Virus record (IMG/VR): IMGVR_UViG_3300003322_001571
Location: 1-27,646 of that record
From: a virus
Strand: one strand, 5' to 3'
DNA: 27,646 nucleotides
A program made the translations under genes and the position numbers. A model generated the notes under the pieces. It had not been told where the DNA came from. It was given only the letters and a program-made list of their open reading frames with translations, and did not search any database. Shown here piece after piece: positions 1 through 20,999 of the stretch (position 1 is the first letter of the stretch; each line of letters starts with the position of its first letter).

Positions 1-3000
1 CTGCACCCAGCCCAGGTTCATCGACGTCAGCTGCTGGGAGACGTACGCCGCCACCGGTGCCAACTGCTGGGCCTTCGTCAGGAAGTTGGTGGCGTAGTCG
101 GCCGTCTTCGACTGGAAATCGTCGATGCCGCCCAGCAGGTCAATCAGGCTTTCGCGCGCCGCGATGGACGACACACCGGTTGCCCCGAAGGTCTTGCCGA
201 TGGACTGCAGCGACGCGTCGAGCTTGGCGTAGTCGGATGCCACCCGCACAAGGGTCTCCATGTAGCCTTCGCCGGCCCGCTGGAACTGCTCCAGATCGCC
301 GACGGCATACTTGGCCATCTGGTCGCCCAGCTTTGAGAACACGGCTTCCAGCTGCTTCTGGATGTCGTCGCCGCTCAGACCTTTCAGGCTGACCTTGCCG
401 ATGTCGATCACGAAGCTGTTCAGCTTGTTAGTGAACTCGTCGCCGGACACCCCGAGCAGCGAACCGGCCTGCTGCACACTGGACGACAGCGACTTGATGA
501 TCGCCGTCAGCTGGGTGTTGGCGTCGGCACCCACATCCGTCATCTGCGTGTTGTGCTTGTCCGAGCGGAACCAGCCACCCGAGCTCTTGATGTCGGCGTA
601 GGTCTTGGCGTCGATGCCGGTGGCAATGGCCGAAGCCAGCGATTCCTTGCTGATGGTGAAACCCGAGTCTTCCACCGACTGTTTGCCGCCGAAGATGCTT
701 GTGCCTACCTTGCCAAACAGATTGCCGAGGACAGGAATCTTGGCCAACAGCGAACCGAAAACGATGCCCCCAGCCCCCCACGATGCAATCGTTTTTCCCA
801 GCCCATTGTTACTGTTGAGGTTACCGACGTCCGGGTTGGTGATGTCGGTCGTGCGGAGCAGTGTGCTGGCGAAATTCGCGATGTTCGATTCGATACCTCG
901 CAATGCCGCGAGCATGCCCGACAGATAGTTGATCTGCGTCGAGGAGTTCGAGGCCGACATCTGGATAGCCCTGGCGACCGAATCGGACTTGGCATTGCTG
1001 CTGCCCAGCACGGTGCCAGTGCCTTGCGCCGCCTGGCGGTCCTGCGACACCGACTGACCGCCGCCACCGCCGCTCAGTGCAACACCCAGGCCCGTCACGA
1101 GGGCCGCCATTGCAGCCATACGGCCGAACGCCGTGTAAGGGTCGCCTTGACCTTGGGTGAGCACCGCACTGATGGCCTTCGGCACCAGTTCCGCAGTCGT
1201 CATCGCCAGCTCGGCCGCGTGGAATACCTGGGACACGGCCATGAGCGCTTTGTAGCCCCGGCTGTGCTCGTCGAAGAAGCCTGCGGCAGCACTTGCCATG
1301 TTGCCGTAGCCGGCGAGCTGCGCCTGCGTGTTGCGCTGGTTCAGCTTGCTGATATCGCTCAGGTACTTCGCTTCGGTGACCGAACCGTCCTTGCGTTCCT
1401 TTTCCGCGTCGGCATACGCTTTTTGAATCCTGGCCTGCTCGGTGCCATAAGCGGTCAGGGCACTCGTCAGCTTGCCAAGGCTGTCGATCGCGGCGCCAAA
1501 CGCACCTTTCATCGACTGGCCGAACGTTTGCGCCTTCGTCGGATCGAGGAATTTGTCCAGCTCTTGCGCCGCCTTGGCGCCTTCCTCGGCAACGGCGCCA
1601 TCGGCCAGCAGCCCGGAAATTTCCTTGCGCTTGGCGATCTCGGTGTCCAGGTTGGCCAGACGAATCCTGTAGACGGCCAGGGACTGCTCGTCCATCTGCC
1701 ACTTGGTCAGGCCGTCGCGCAAGTAGTCGGCGTCGCTTTGCAGCTGCGCCGTCTGACTGTCCTCGACCGCTTGCTTTTCCAGCTCGATCTGCGCTTTGGT
1801 CTTGCCGATCTCGGCGTTGTGTTCCTTCTGCTTGGCGATCTGGTCGTCCAGGCTCTTGATCGTCGTCGCGCCGGCATCGACGGTGGCCTTGACGATGTCC
1901 TGGTAGGACCGCTGGCTGTCGGCTTCGGCATTGGTCGCGTCTTGCCCATCGGCGTTGCGCATGTCGTCGACGAACTTCTGGTGCGCTTTCACCAGCTGGT
2001 CGTATTTTTCCTTCGCGGCCGCGACTTCCTGCGGGTTGCGCGCCTGCGCCTGGGCATTCTTGACCAGGGCGGCTTCCTTGGCGAACGCGATCGCCTCGGA
2101 TGCAACGTATTCCGCGCGTGCCGCCTGACGGCTGGCGTAAAAGTCGGCATCGGACAGGCCGAACTTGGAGTGATACATCTCCAGCATCTTGTCGCGGGCC
2201 TCGTAGACCGAACGCTCGCTTTCGAGCGCGGTCTGCGCCTGCGTGATCTCGTCCTGGAGCACCCTGGAGCGGTCGTCCTGGCCCTTCGCCGGGCTTTCCT
2301 TGTACCGCTTCTGGATTGCGTCGACCAGGGTGTCGTAAGCGCCGCCGCTGAAGTTCTTGCCACCGGCGCCGTCGTCGGACACGGTCACGCCGGCAAGCAT
2401 GCGGGAATTCGGGTTTGCCGCCAGAACGTCGAGAAACTGCTGCTTGAGGCGCATGAGTTCGCGCGCCTGCTTCTCGCCCTTCTCGTATTTCTTCATCTCG
2501 CCTTCCAGCTCGATGAATGCCTGGTTGCCTTTTTCGTTGATGAGCGCGGCCCGGGTGGCTTTATTCTCGGCATCGGTGCGGGCCTTGATGCGGGCCTCAA
2601 GCTTCGCGATTTCGGCGTCGTTGTCGCCACCACCGAACAGGTCACCCAGTGCGCCGGGAAGTGCATTGCCAAGGTTACGGACGACCCCACCGAACGTGAT
2701 GCTACCGGCCTTTTCAGCCTTACGATCGGCCAGCTGTGCTTCAAGCGATGCCGCGCCGATCGCTACCGCACCAGCGCGCTTCATCTTTTCCCATGCCCGG
2801 ATCGCCGCGTCACCGATGTCGTTCCAGGCCTTCTGTCCGTCGCTCAAATGCTCGCGCATGGTATCGATGCGCCGTTTCGCGGCCTGGGCGATTGCCTCGG
2901 CGGCCACGTTCTCGGCTTCCTGCTTGTTCTGCGACTTCTCCAGCAGGCTGATGTGCTCAAGAACGGCGGTGCCGATCATGTGATATTTCTTGTCAAACCC

Positions 3001-4098
3001 GACGGCGAACTTCTCGACGCCGTCGTCCATCTTGAGAAATTCTTTGACGACGGTATCGGCCGATTCGCCGGTGAGCTTGGCCATCAATGCCGCAGCGGTG
3101 CCTGTCAAGGCGAAGCCTTCGCCAGTGAAACGGCCGGAAGCGGCCAGCTCGGTCAGGATGGTCGTGGCGGTGCCGGTCCGGTGCGTGACCTCGCCAATCG
3201 CTGCGGAAAGGTTCAGGATCTCGCCCGTGGTAAAGCCGGCGTAGTCGCCGGTCACCAGCAGATCGTGATTCAAGGTCTTGACCTCGACGGCACCACGCAC
3301 GGCCGCCGCGACGAGTGTCCCGACCGCTGCGACCAGGCCGAGCGCCGCCAGTCCGGCCGAGCTAAACAGCATGCCGGCCGCGCCGGTCTGCTCTCCGAGG
3401 ACCATCAGCGAGCCGCCAAAGTTCTTGAAGTTGCCCTGGCTGAGTTCGTGCGCGAGGACGAGCAGCTCGCGCCGTGCACCGGCAGTCTGGAAGTTCAAGC
3501 CTTCCATGTGCTTGCCGGCGGTATTGGCGCCGTTGCCGGCCTCGGCCAGCCGCTGGATGAGCGGCGCCGCCGCATCCGCGACACCGAGCTGGGCCGCGCG
3601 GTAAGCCTGCAGCTGGGCCGTGTTCATGCCAAGCGTCGCCACCTGGTCTTTGAGCTTGTTGAGGAACTGTTCGGCCGCTTTCGCGGCCCGGTCCTGCTCG
3701 GCGGCCAGCTGGCGCGCGGCCTGCTCGTCGCGGTGCATGGCGTCGATCGCGGCCCCGAGGGCGGCGGCCTGCTGCTGGACCACGTTCGACAGGCCGGCCT
3801 TGGCCGCCTTGTATCGCTCGACCTCGCCCCGGCCGGCGCCGAACAGGTCGATCTCGCGCTGCAGCGGGTCCAGGAACTTCCTGGCCGCCTCGCTAGCCAG
3901 GCTGGTCGCTTCCGCGTTCTGCCGCATGATCGCGGCGGTGTCGTTCATTTGGCCGTTGACGACCGCCAGGGATTTGCCCGCCTTCTCGGCGCTCGTCGTC
4001 AGGTTGTCGGTCGAGGTGGTGAACTGGTCGATGGCGGATACCGCCCCCTGGTTGCCGCTGACGTTGATACGGATGCCGTATTCGACCGTGTTGCCCAT
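1..4098 (-). CDS. Tail tape-measure protein (partial, runs off left edge)
   Basis: This frame is open from an ATG at 4098 to the window edge, at least 1366 codons, with no stop. The protein sets tail length and is threaded through the tail tube. Seen directly: an N-terminus beginning MGNTVEYGIRINVSG, long Ala/Gln/Lys/Glu-rich helical stretches typical of tape measures, and two hydrophobic segments near residues 245-270 (SAGLAALGLVAAVGTLVAAA) and 990-1010 (AAMAALVTGLGVALSGGGGG). A GGAAG Shine-Dalgarno lies 7 nt before the ATG. It directly follows the tail chaperone frames, the usual order in siphovirus tails. By the rule of about 0.15 nm per residue, the tail would be at least about 200 nm long (inference). 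The family identity is from composition and position, not from an alignment. The C-terminus is missing. Confidence 0.9.
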   Translation of the reverse strand, partial: MGNTVEYGIRINVSGNQGAVSAIDQFTTSTDNLTTSAEKAGKSLAVVNGQMNDTAAIMRQNAEATSLASEAARKFLDPLQREIDLFGAGRGEVERYKAAKAGLSNVVQQQAAALGAAIDAMHRDEQAARQLAAEQDRAAKAAEQFLNKLKDQVATLGMNTAQLQAYRAAQLGVADAAAPLIQRLAEAGNGANTAGKHMEGLNFQTAGARRELLVLAHELSQGNFKNFGGSLMVLGEQTGAAGMLFSSAGLAALGLVAAVGTLVAAAVRGAVEVKTLNHDLLVTGDYAGFTTGEILNLSAAIGEVTHRTGTATTILTELAASGRFTGEGFALTGTAAALMAKLTGESADTVVKEFLKMDDGVEKFAVGFDKKYHMIGTAVLEHISLLEKSQNKQEAENVAAEAIAQAAKRRIDTMREHLSDGQKAWNDIGDAAIRAWEKMKRAGAVAIGAASLEAQLADRKAEKAGSITFGGVVRNLGNALPGALGDLFGGGDNDAEIAKLEARIKARTDAENKATRAALINEKGNQAFIELEGEMKKYEKGEKQARELMRLKQQFLDVLAANPNSRMLAGVTVSDDGAGGKNFSGGAYDTLVDAIQKRYKESPAKGQDDRSRVLQDEITQAQTALESERSVYEARDKMLEMYHSKFGLSDADFYASRQAARAEYVASEAIAFAKEAALVKNAQAQARNPQEVAAAKEKYDQLVKAHQKFVDDMRNADGQDATNAEADSQRSYQDIVKATVDAGATTIKSLDDQIAKQKEHNAEIGKTKAQIELEKQAVEDSQTAQLQSDADYLRDGLTKWQMDEQSLAVYRIRLANLDTEIAKRKEISGLLADGAVAEEGAKAAQELDKFLDPTKAQTFGQSMKGAFGAAIDSLGKLTSALTAYGTEQARIQKAYADAEKERKDGSVTEAKYLSDISKLNQRNTQAQLAGYGNMASAAAGFFDEHSRGYKALMAVSQVFHAAELAMTTAELVPKAISAVLTQGQGDPYTAFGRMAAMAALVTGLGVALSGGGGGQSVSQDRQAAQGTGTVLGSSNAKSDSVARAIQMSASNSSTQINYLSGMLAALRGIESNIANFASTLLRTTDITNPDVGNLNSNNGLGKTIASWGAGGIVFGSLLAKIPVLGNLFGKVGTSIFGGKQSVEDSGFTISKESLASAIATGIDAKTYADIKSSGGWFRSDKHNTQMTDVGADANTQLTAIIKSLSSSVQQAGSLLGVSGDEFTNKLNSFVIDIGKVSLKGLSGDDIQKQLEAVFSKLGDQMAKYAVGDLEQFQRAGEGYMETLVRVASDYAKLDASLQSIGKTFGATGVSSIAARESLIDLLGGIDDFQSKTADYATNFLTKAQQLAPVAAYVSQQLTSMNLGWVQ

Positions 4099-4119: not shown

Positions 4120-4569
4120 TTATCGTCGCGCGGCGTCCAGTTCCTGTTGCCGCTTTTCCCGCCGCGCCTGGCGGGCCTTGTTCATCACCTGCAGGGCGGC
4201 GCCTTCCATCGCTTCCAGGTCGGCGACGACCTCGGGCCAGGCGCGCTTCGGTATGCCGTTCATGGTGCGCAGCGCGCCTTCCACGTTGGGCCACCAGATG
4301 CCCGTTCTCACCATCTCGCCATCCGAGGCCGCCACGATGTTCCATTTGCTTTCCAGGCGCAGGAACACCCGCAGCGTCAACAGGTTGTCGGACCAGACCT
4401 CGTAGCCTTCTTCCTCGACCTCATCTTCCCTGGGCGCGTCCGCAATCTCGTCCGCGATGCCGAGGATCTTCATGTCCTCGGCCAGCTCGTCGGAGACCAC
4501 GCGGCCCCAGGTATCCTTCGGGGCGCCGCCGCTGATCGACTGCCCCCACCACTCGGCGGCGCCGATCAG
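4120..4569 (-). CDS. Tail assembly chaperone, T part of a -1 frameshift G-T fusion
   Basis: This frame has no good start of its own. It continues from the upstream chaperone gene by -1 frameshifting at 4569-4575. The fusion would run from 4931 to the TAA at 4120-4122, about 270 aa (121 from G, 149 from T). Immediately after the shift the frame reads LIGAAEWWGQSISGG, a Trp-rich beginning often seen in the T half of such chaperones. The rest is acidic then basic, ending QQELDAARR. A GTG at 4500 could in principle start a free 126-aa product, but it has no convincing ribosome-binding site and would drop the conserved-looking GAAEWWG segment. Like lambda gpGT, the fusion should recruit tail tube subunits to the tape measure. 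Known: lambda makes gpGT as a minority product. Inferred: the same here. Confidence 0.8.
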   Translation of the reverse strand: MIGAAEWWGQSISGGAPKDTWGRVVSDELAEDMKILGIADEIADAPREDEVEEEGYEVWSDNLLTLRVFLRLESKWNIVAASDGEMVRTGIWWPNVEGALRTMNGIPKRAWPEVVADLEAMEGAALQVMNKARQARREKRQQELDAARR

Positions 4570-4575
4570 TTTTTT
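4522..4575 (-). promoter_or_regulatory. Programmed -1 ribosomal frameshift signal
   Basis: On the coding strand the heptamer A AAA AAC (4575-4569) is in the correct X XXY YYZ phase for the upstream gene. A TGA stop (4568-4566) follows at once. Five nt after the heptamer starts a perfect 9-bp inverted repeat, GGCGCCGCC (4563-4555) and GGCGGCGCC (4530-4522), with a 24-nt loop. Slippery site, spacer and stem together are the standard layout of lambda-type tail chaperone frameshift sites. Confidence 0.87.
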
Positions 4576-4980: not shown

Positions 4981-5928
4981 TTACAGGCAGGTCAGTGCGA
5001 TCTCGTCGTTGCCGACGACGGGCGTCGGCTGCAGCGTGAGCTTGTAGGCGGTCAGCTCCTCGACCTGGTCGTATGCCACGTCGACGATCTTGGCCAGCAA
5101 GTCGACCCGGACCTTCTTGCCGTCCACGCTGCCGTGGTTGATCGTCGCCGCGACCACGGCGTTGCTTTCGGCAATCGCGAACGGGTTGAAGGTGACCAGG
5201 TCGGGGGCCAGCACCGTCACGGACGCGGTCGGGGCACGATCGGTGATGGAGATTTCCTTTTGCGGCCCCGGCAGGTCGATGCGGGTGATCTTGTTGCCGA
5301 AGTCCCAATCGAATGCGGACCAGGCCAGATTGGTGCCATTGACGCTGGCCGCCTGGGTGTTCACGCTGTTGACGCCTTCTTCGATCTGCCAGCCGGTACG
5401 GGTGACAACCGGCATGGCACCGACGACCGGCGTCACGTACAGCGCGTCGAAGTCGAACGACAGCTTCGGCGTGCCTTTCGCGGCCATGCTGCCCTTGCAG
5501 TTGCCGCGCATGCCCAGCAGCTTGTGCAGGACGCCGTCGATGTTGATGTAGCCGACCACGCTGCCGAATGCCTGGCTGATCAGGTTGTAGGCGACCGACG
5601 TGGCCGCGACAATGGTCTGGGCCGTCCCGACGGCGAGCATCGGTGTCGACCATTTCGGGGCGGCGCCGGCCGTGCCGGAACCCACCAGGGCGACGTCGAA
5701 CGACAGCTTGGCCCAGAAGCCGACCAGGACGCTGCCGGCCGAGCCGAAGTACGGCAGCGTGATGTCGCGGTCGACCTTGTCGACGTCCATCGGGGTCAGG
5801 CTCACGTTGCGCGCCTCGATCCAGTCGGTAGTGCCGGCCGGGTTTGTATCGACACCATAGTCGGTCTCCAGCTTCATCAGGAGGGCCTTGTTCTTCCACT
5901 TGCGCGGGGTCGTGACGATGTTAGGCAC
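4981..5928 (-). CDS. Tail tube (major tail) protein
   Basis: A 315-aa protein beginning MPNIVTTPRKWKNKALLMKL. The start is GTG at 5928, supported by an AGGAG site 7 nt upstream inside the end of the preceding gene (8-nt overlap). It matches what I know of siphovirus tail tube proteins from Mu-like phages such as B3: an opening with LETDYGVDTNP, then many short beta strands and few charged clusters (for example RNVSLTPMDVDKVDRDITLP), and a C-terminal part rich in Thr/Val ending TPVVGNDEIALTCL. It would polymerise into the hollow tube beneath the head. No contractile sheath gene lies beside it, which argues for a non-contractile tail. Its position between head-tail joining genes and the chaperone pair supports the call. 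Confidence 0.82.
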   Translation of the reverse strand: MPNIVTTPRKWKNKALLMKLETDYGVDTNPAGTTDWIEARNVSLTPMDVDKVDRDITLPYFGSAGSVLVGFWAKLSFDVALVGSGTAGAAPKWSTPMLAVGTAQTIVAATSVAYNLISQAFGSVVGYINIDGVLHKLLGMRGNCKGSMAAKGTPKLSFDFDALYVTPVVGAMPVVTRTGWQIEEGVNSVNTQAASVNGTNLAWSAFDWDFGNKITRIDLPGPQKEISITDRAPTASVTVLAPDLVTFNPFAIAESNAVVAATINHGSVDGKKVRVDLLAKIVDVAYDQVEELTAYKLTLQPTPVVGNDEIALTCL

Positions 5929-19915: not shown

Positions 19916-20446
19916 TCACGCCTCCAACTTGACGACGGTGTCGATCGACATGTTGACCTCGTCGACGGGCAAGGCGGCCGCGACCTGAAATTCTGCATCA
20001 GGGTAAATCTCTTCCTGTGAACGGTCCACCACCAGCTCATCCAATCCATTCTCGGCCAGTATCTCGATCGATTCGCAGACCTTGACCAGATGCGCGATCG
20101 CCGCTTTTCCGCTCGACCAGGTGCTGTAAAACAGCGTCATCGTGCCGCTGTAGTGCTTCTTCACGTATCGCTTCCCCCACGCCTTTTCCATCTTCGCTTT
20201 GTACGAGGCGGACCATAGCGGGCGGACGGCCTTGCGCATATAACGCTGTTCATGGACCGGCTTGTCGGCCAGCATCCACTCGCCCTTGAACCAGCCGTTC
20301 ACATAGACCACGACAACAAATTTCAACGGCTTTTCCTCCTGTACGCTGAGTGTGATCCTGTCGCCGTCGCAATTGAGAACCACGACGCCCCAGGGCGAAC
20401 TCAGTTCTTTGATCAGGTGGGCCTTTTGTTCCGTTGTTAATTTCAT
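19916..20446 (-). CDS. Conserved-looking early protein, unknown function
   Basis: A 176-aa protein, ATG at 20446 with GAGGGG 6 nt upstream. It begins MKLTTEQKAHLIKELSSPWG and has a beta-rich middle (RITLSVQEEKPLKFVVVVYV NGWFKG...), several aromatic residues and a basic patch (SASYKAKMEKAWGKRYVKKH). It ends with a helical, acidic part. I do not recognise a domain. It sits ahead of gemA in the block where transposable phages carry host-takeover or counter-defence genes. That placement is suggestive only. Confidence 0.8.
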   Translation of the reverse strand: MKLTTEQKAHLIKELSSPWGVVVLNCDGDRITLSVQEEKPLKFVVVVYVNGWFKGEWMLADKPVHEQRYMRKAVRPLWSASYKAKMEKAWGKRYVKKHYSGTMTLFYSTWSSGKAAIAHLVKVCESIEILAENGLDELVVDRSQEEIYPDAEFQVAAALPVDEVNMSIDTVVKLEA

Positions 20447-20528
20447 CCTTTACCCCTCTGTTTGGCTGCTCATCAGTACCTGGCCACCGCGCCAGGCAGA
20501 CCGACCGCCAGCGGCGGCCGGTTTCGCT

Positions 20529-20999
20529 TCAGTTGGGCGGCGTCACGAACACGACACCGTGTCGCCCTTTGTGCCCGTTGTTCCGCGCGCACCATTTCAG
20601 CCACTTCGCCAGGGCGTCGCTCTTGGCTTTCTGGTCGTCCAGCTCGGGCACGCCCGGAACCAGGAGCTTGCCCTCGCTGGCGCCTCGGCCGATGCGGGCC
20701 AGCGCGGCGATCGCCCAGGTGAGGTACGCTTTCGCCCCGGTCGCGATCAGGATGGCGCCTTCCGGCATCGCATCCTCATTGCCGATCTCGATCAGGCCGG
20801 ACGCCCAGCACCACGCGACCTGGGGACTGAGGTCGAAGAAGGAACGCCCCCCGCAGCGAGGGCAGACCCGCGCCTGGCGCCCGTCGCCGATAACCCGCAC
20901 CTGGCGTTCCGATTTCTTGTGCTTGTTGCGGCAGCGAGTGCATTGCACGTCTTTGTCGCTGGACAGCTGGTCGGTTTGGTTCGAACAGTTCAATTTCAT
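20529..20999 (-). CDS. Zinc-ribbon protein, unknown function
   Basis: A 156-aa protein whose ATG at 20999 overlaps the previous stop (ATGA). N-terminal zinc ribbon: CTRCRNKHKKSERQ and, after a basic strand, ARVCPRCGGRSF: two C-x2-C pairs about 25 residues apart (near residues 20-50), like a nucleic-acid-binding rubredoxin-type knuckle. A middle segment (LIEIGNEDAMPEGAILIATG) and a C-terminal helical part (AKSDALAKWLKWCARNNGHK) follow. It may bind DNA or RNA. An 82-nt gap to the next gene has only a small CCTGGC/GCCAGG repeat. Confidence 0.8.
   Translation of the reverse strand: MKLNCSNQTDQLSSDKDVQCTRCRNKHKKSERQVRVIGDGRQARVCPRCGGRSFFDLSPQVAWCWASGLIEIGNEDAMPEGAILIATGAKAYLTWAIAALARIGRGASEGKLLVPGVPELDDQKAKSDALAKWLKWCARNNGHKGRHGVVFVTPPN

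Follow-up and report, generated by a model that had tools for sequence, protein, structure and literature searches.

Organization of the tail module

The window that we analysed, a stretch of 27,646 nucleotides, encodes a phage Mu-like virus (transposase, Mu portal, Mu F, Mu protease and gpT capsid). Across its whole length (1-27646), the Mu-like head and transposition module is combined with a TAC_4/DUF1799/TMP_2 tail module, in which the genes follow the order tail protein, TAC_4, DUF1799 and TMP_2. The features on which our analysis turns all lie on the minus strand, as follows.

4981..5928, minus: a tail protein, probably that of the tail tube, encoded upstream of G (PHROG 290, tail; position as in relatives)
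4931-4566, minus: G, putative tail assembly chaperone, zero frame, 121 aa (Pfam Phage_TAC_4; PHROG tail families)
4575-4569, minus: slippery heptamer A AAA AAC, in the zero-frame phase xxA AAA AAC that is right for tandem -1 slippage (read from the sequence)
4568-4566, minus: TGA, the stop codon of G, flush with the heptamer (read from the sequence; TGA, TAA or TAG in relatives)
4120..4569, minus: T, -1 frame extension, 149 aa from CTG 4569-4567 (DUF1799; frame open)
4563-4554, minus: 5' arm of the stem, GGCGCCGCCG, beginning 5 nt after the heptamer (fold and comparative helix test)
4531-4522, minus: 3' arm of the stem, CGGCGGCGCC (fold and comparative helix test)
4500-4498, minus: GTG, with no other common start codon among the first 30 codons of T; a rival start that is not conserved
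1..4098, minus: tape measure protein (TMP_2; Pfam match), extending past the window end

Evaluating the two frames against Pfam, we found that G matches Phage_TAC_4 (PF08748) at 22.0 bits, which is above the gathering cutoff of 21.1 by a marginal amount, and that T matches DUF1799 (PF08809) at 31.0 bits (gathering cutoff 26). No stop interrupts the -1 frame between 4575 and 4120, and it runs through the heptamer into a second conserved domain, with the site placed immediately before the tape measure gene (TMP_2 starts at 4098); the predicted G-T fusion would be 270 aa long. Foldseek comparison of the predicted structures of G (pLDDT 80) and T (pLDDT 89) against the PDB returned nothing significant, and a sequence search of PDB chains gave chance-level matches only, so that the putative chaperone role is assigned from Pfam, PHROG and gene order.

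Elsewhere in the window, we observed a type II hammerhead ribozyme (RF02276; 69.6 bits, E 8e-13) at 20460-20529 on the minus strand, which fills an intergenic gap from the final base of the stop codon that closes the upstream ORF to a point 13 nt before the ATG at 20446. Hammerheads in phage intergenic regions are already known (PMC3088659).

A slippery heptamer and stem at the end of G

The G reading frame terminates ...CGA AAA AAC TGA on the minus strand, so that an in-phase X XXY YYZ heptamer of the lambda G/GT type lies close to the 3' end of the first gene and is followed at once by the stop, as the first-pass annotation had read both elements. RNA structure a few nucleotides after the heptamer, a frequent and non-obligatory part of such sites, is also present. 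The first-pass annotation had described it as a perfect 9-bp stem 5 nt downstream; the spacing stands at 5 nt, and the length is corrected to 10 bp, a GC stem that constitutes the MFE structure of 51 nt of local sequence (-29.8 kcal/mol). Adding 18 nt more downstream changes the naked-RNA MFE to a different fold that pairs the stop region, and as this longer RNA prefers the other fold, the stem is expected to form chiefly after a ribosome has come to cover the first nucleotides.

Taken singly, these elements are unexceptional. The window contains 4 copies of AAAAAAC versus 1.6 expected, and the motif by itself is nothing special there, while the window's own stem, evaluated against 300 synonymous-codon shuffles, is not significant (p = 0.086) and is not exceptional for GC-rich sequence. 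Given a motif that is not rare and a stem of this kind, one genome alone would not prove a case of frameshifting. Throughout all sequence examined, ORFs of at least 100 codons showed a flush X XXY YYZ heptamer of any type at 139 of 1,956 distinct ends, 136 of which had the (A/G)3AAAC form marking G genes of the TAC_4/DUF1799 family; outside that G family, a flush heptamer is rare (about 0.2% of long-ORF ends).

The heptamer is near-universal among relatives

Comparison of related phages, which the first-pass annotation had proposed as a check on heptamer and stem, revealed a near-universal heptamer and stems paired beyond a protein-preserving null. The close relatives (L003-L006, 64-90% identity) all possess the heptamer, as do the distant Synechococcus phages S-CBS1 and S-CBS3 (G 27-31% identity), and the stop in these genomes varies among TGA, TAG and TAA. 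A profile scan with G yielded 80 loci, 79 with the G stop inside the contig, and all 79 of the latter possess X XXA AAC then TRA, in phase and flush (A AAA AAC in 74, G GGA AAC in 5); the same kind of scan applied to bacterial genome contigs found no relatives, and the T profile contained no stretch of sufficient conservation for it. From the T side, we scanned with the DUF1799 domain alone, which avoids selection for the heptamer, and accepted any X XXY YYN, revealing an in-phase heptamer in 35 of 36 non-redundant loci, with the remaining one cut by the contig end. Named phages and plasmids possessed the heptamer in 14/14 cases and then in 8/9 of a deliberately diverse second set (22/23 overall).

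The lone exception in the diverse set is a Paraclostridium plasmid with A AAA GTT at the heptamer place, which we set aside as a counterexample on the grounds that an indel breaks its own G frame. A search for relatives that have G and T and lack the heptamer, which would have spoken against the first-pass reading, thus returned a single odd record. The tail module of this record (L183, CP124687.1 34964-36940) resembles that of Klebsiella phage VAC2 (Webervirus), and its altered heptamer and G indel perhaps reflect a contaminant or poor assembly.

In form, the heptamer of relatives is always A AAA AAC or G GGA AAC, with G GGA AAC taking the place of A AAA AAC in 12/63 non-redundant loci; these swaps argue that slipperiness is kept rather than a Lys codon. 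The stop is flush with the heptamer in 60/63 non-redundant loci, and later stops fall 8 codons on in three T-survey loci and one codon on in three loci of the diverse set. The swaps also bear on whether the shift could be transcriptional, arising from RNA polymerase slippage on the A run instead of from the ribosome. A run of six A is indeed present at the site, but six is short for efficient polymerase slippage, G GGA AAC interrupts the A run yet leaves the ribosomal slip motif intact, and the RNA stems at ribosomal spacing are under selection. We consider polymerase slippage exceedingly improbable and rejected it on the G GGA AAC variants.

Conserved pairing downstream of the heptamer

To evaluate the stem across relatives, we scored the best helix that began 3-9 nt downstream of the heptamer and compared it with shuffles that preserve the protein and its codon usage. 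Helix scores at the site averaged 22.4 versus 15.7 for synonymous shuffles across n=63 non-redundant loci, with a z of 14.7 that is not a strict probability given that these loci are related; seven control windows further along T, which have the same relatedness, gave z from -1.9 to 2.7. The arm sequences change yet remain paired (GCATCGCTG/CAGCGATGC in L019, GCGCTGCCAG/CTGGCAGCGT in L077), and a few relatives, for example L014, are without a strong stem.

Entry into the T frame

The first common start codon of the -1 frame is the GTG at 4500-4498, 23 codons after the heptamer, from which T might be translated as a separate gene by reinitiation after G, leaving the heptamer and stem as chance occurrences or relics. 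This in-frame GTG is preceded by a GGGG that weakly resembles an SD, and an internal start is given for T in many public records, but the codon is missing at that place in L004-L006, and the position of a start codon is conserved nowhere in T, with the first ATG falling anywhere from codon 7 to codon 107. T residues upstream of any start are conserved and predicted to be structured: those between the heptamer and the GTG retain L..AA..W, with the third codon position most variable, and the first T residues are predicted as helix (pLDDT about 92). The near-universal heptamer likewise argues against a separate gene. We therefore rejected T as an independent gene for want of a conserved start, and judge reinitiation from the GTG very unlikely. 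These results agree with the first-pass annotation, which held that T upstream of the GTG (LIGAAEWWGQ) would be lost without the shift and named production of T solely from GTG 4500 as a finding that would overturn it.

Inspection of the public records showed that those of L007, L008, L169-L172 and L178-L180 start T internally, losing the conserved N-terminus, and that the S-LBS1 record labels its G an ABC transporter ATPase.

Relation to known frameshift systems

The programmed -1 frameshift of lambda gpG/gpGT, reportedly described by Xu, Hendrix and Duda in 2004 and reviewed in PMC5009743, has the same arrangement as the site studied here: it lies between the tail tube and tape measure genes, shifts by -1, and gives a short G and a longer G-T product, which at our site is predicted. 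The lambda heptamer is G GGA AAG; in contrast to lambda, our site combines A AAA AAC, a flush stop, a downstream stem and the Phage_TAC_4/DUF1799 families.

Frameshifts of this kind are already known, -1 frameshifting in tail chaperone genes being widely conserved (PMC5009743), and the motif was previously proposed in Loki, phiCbK and RcapMu. For Acinetobacter phage Loki (gp12/gp13) and phage IME_AB3, AAAAAAC adjoins the first chaperone stop, and a fusion with the next gene was predicted, which we liken to our site by motif; unlike the present analysis, the passage making that proposal includes neither a stem nor a comparative test (PMC5313236). The tape measure chaperone slippery sites of Caulobacter phages phiCbK (gp93/gp94, AAAAAAC) and Colossus (GGGAAAC) are likewise similar by slippery motif, although these large siphophages belong to another lineage (PMC3556154). 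Rhodobacter phage RcapMu (genes 49/50, NC_016165) carries a 'potential -1 frameshift' note with a DUF1799 neighbour CDS; its heptamer, also flush with TGA, is G GGA AAC rather than A AAA AAC, and its sequence is distant. Synechococcus phages S-CBS1 and S-CBS3 share with our window a homologous G (at the 27-31% identity given above) and T, A AAA AAC, a flush TGA and a GC stem, and differ in that T begins at an internal start in their public records. The Smarc2 and Silvanus records hold joined CDSs. Searching the open-licence literature, we found no family-wide statistics on stem and heptamer.

Proposed mechanism and significance

With the elements, their conservation, the conserved pairing and the gene order directly observed, the relatives compared here support a -1 frameshift under selection that links G to T. 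The joining of these frames by a single cassette, as first proposed, accords with a heptamer that is kept or swapped for its equivalent, a stop that is free to vary, stems that stay paired and upstream T residues that are conserved. We are highly confident that the process is programmed -1 ribosomal frameshifting yielding a G-T fusion like lambda gpGT.

Under this mechanism, most ribosomes would reach the TGA and release the 121-aa G chaperone, while a minority would be delayed by the GC stem starting 5 nt past the heptamer, allowing tRNA-Lys on AAA and tRNA-Asn on AAC to slip together one base back onto AAA AAA. Shifted ribosomes would then read CTG ATC GGC and on through T, releasing the 270-aa fusion. 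Because the A-site AAC would be decoded before a tandem slip, the predicted junction is R-K-N-L-I-G; the K-K-L-I-G junction given in the first-pass annotation would need a P-site slip before AAC is decoded, and we replace it here. On the model of lambda gpG/gpGT, both G and the fusion may coat the tape measure protein while the T part recruits tail tube subunits, and it is from lambda that we infer the fusion product, its ratio and its tail-assembly role in this virus.

In E. coli, A AAA AAC is weaker (less shifty) than A AAA AAG (PMC5009743), and after AA, bacterial ribosomes prefer the final base to be a purine (PMC4066793), so that, with a weak heptamer and a non-purine last base, frameshift efficiency may be low. 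The invariant C would fit a low fusion ratio, as in lambda, for which 30:1 is reported (PMC5009743). A more speculative idea, which we hold to be improbable, is that in DUF1799 phages the flush stop is itself part of the signal, with slow A-site termination driving slippage and the invariant C holding the fusion low and fixed.

For this virus, the gene model is fixed such that a predicted 270-aa fusion replaces a truncated T. More broadly, 649 phage records match DUF1799 at E up to 0.01, and the DUF1799 family shares one conserved frameshift signal, though the examined records mostly show two separate genes. The invariant final C together with the flush stop makes these phages a natural set for studying the means by which bacterial ribosomes keep frameshifting at a low ratio.
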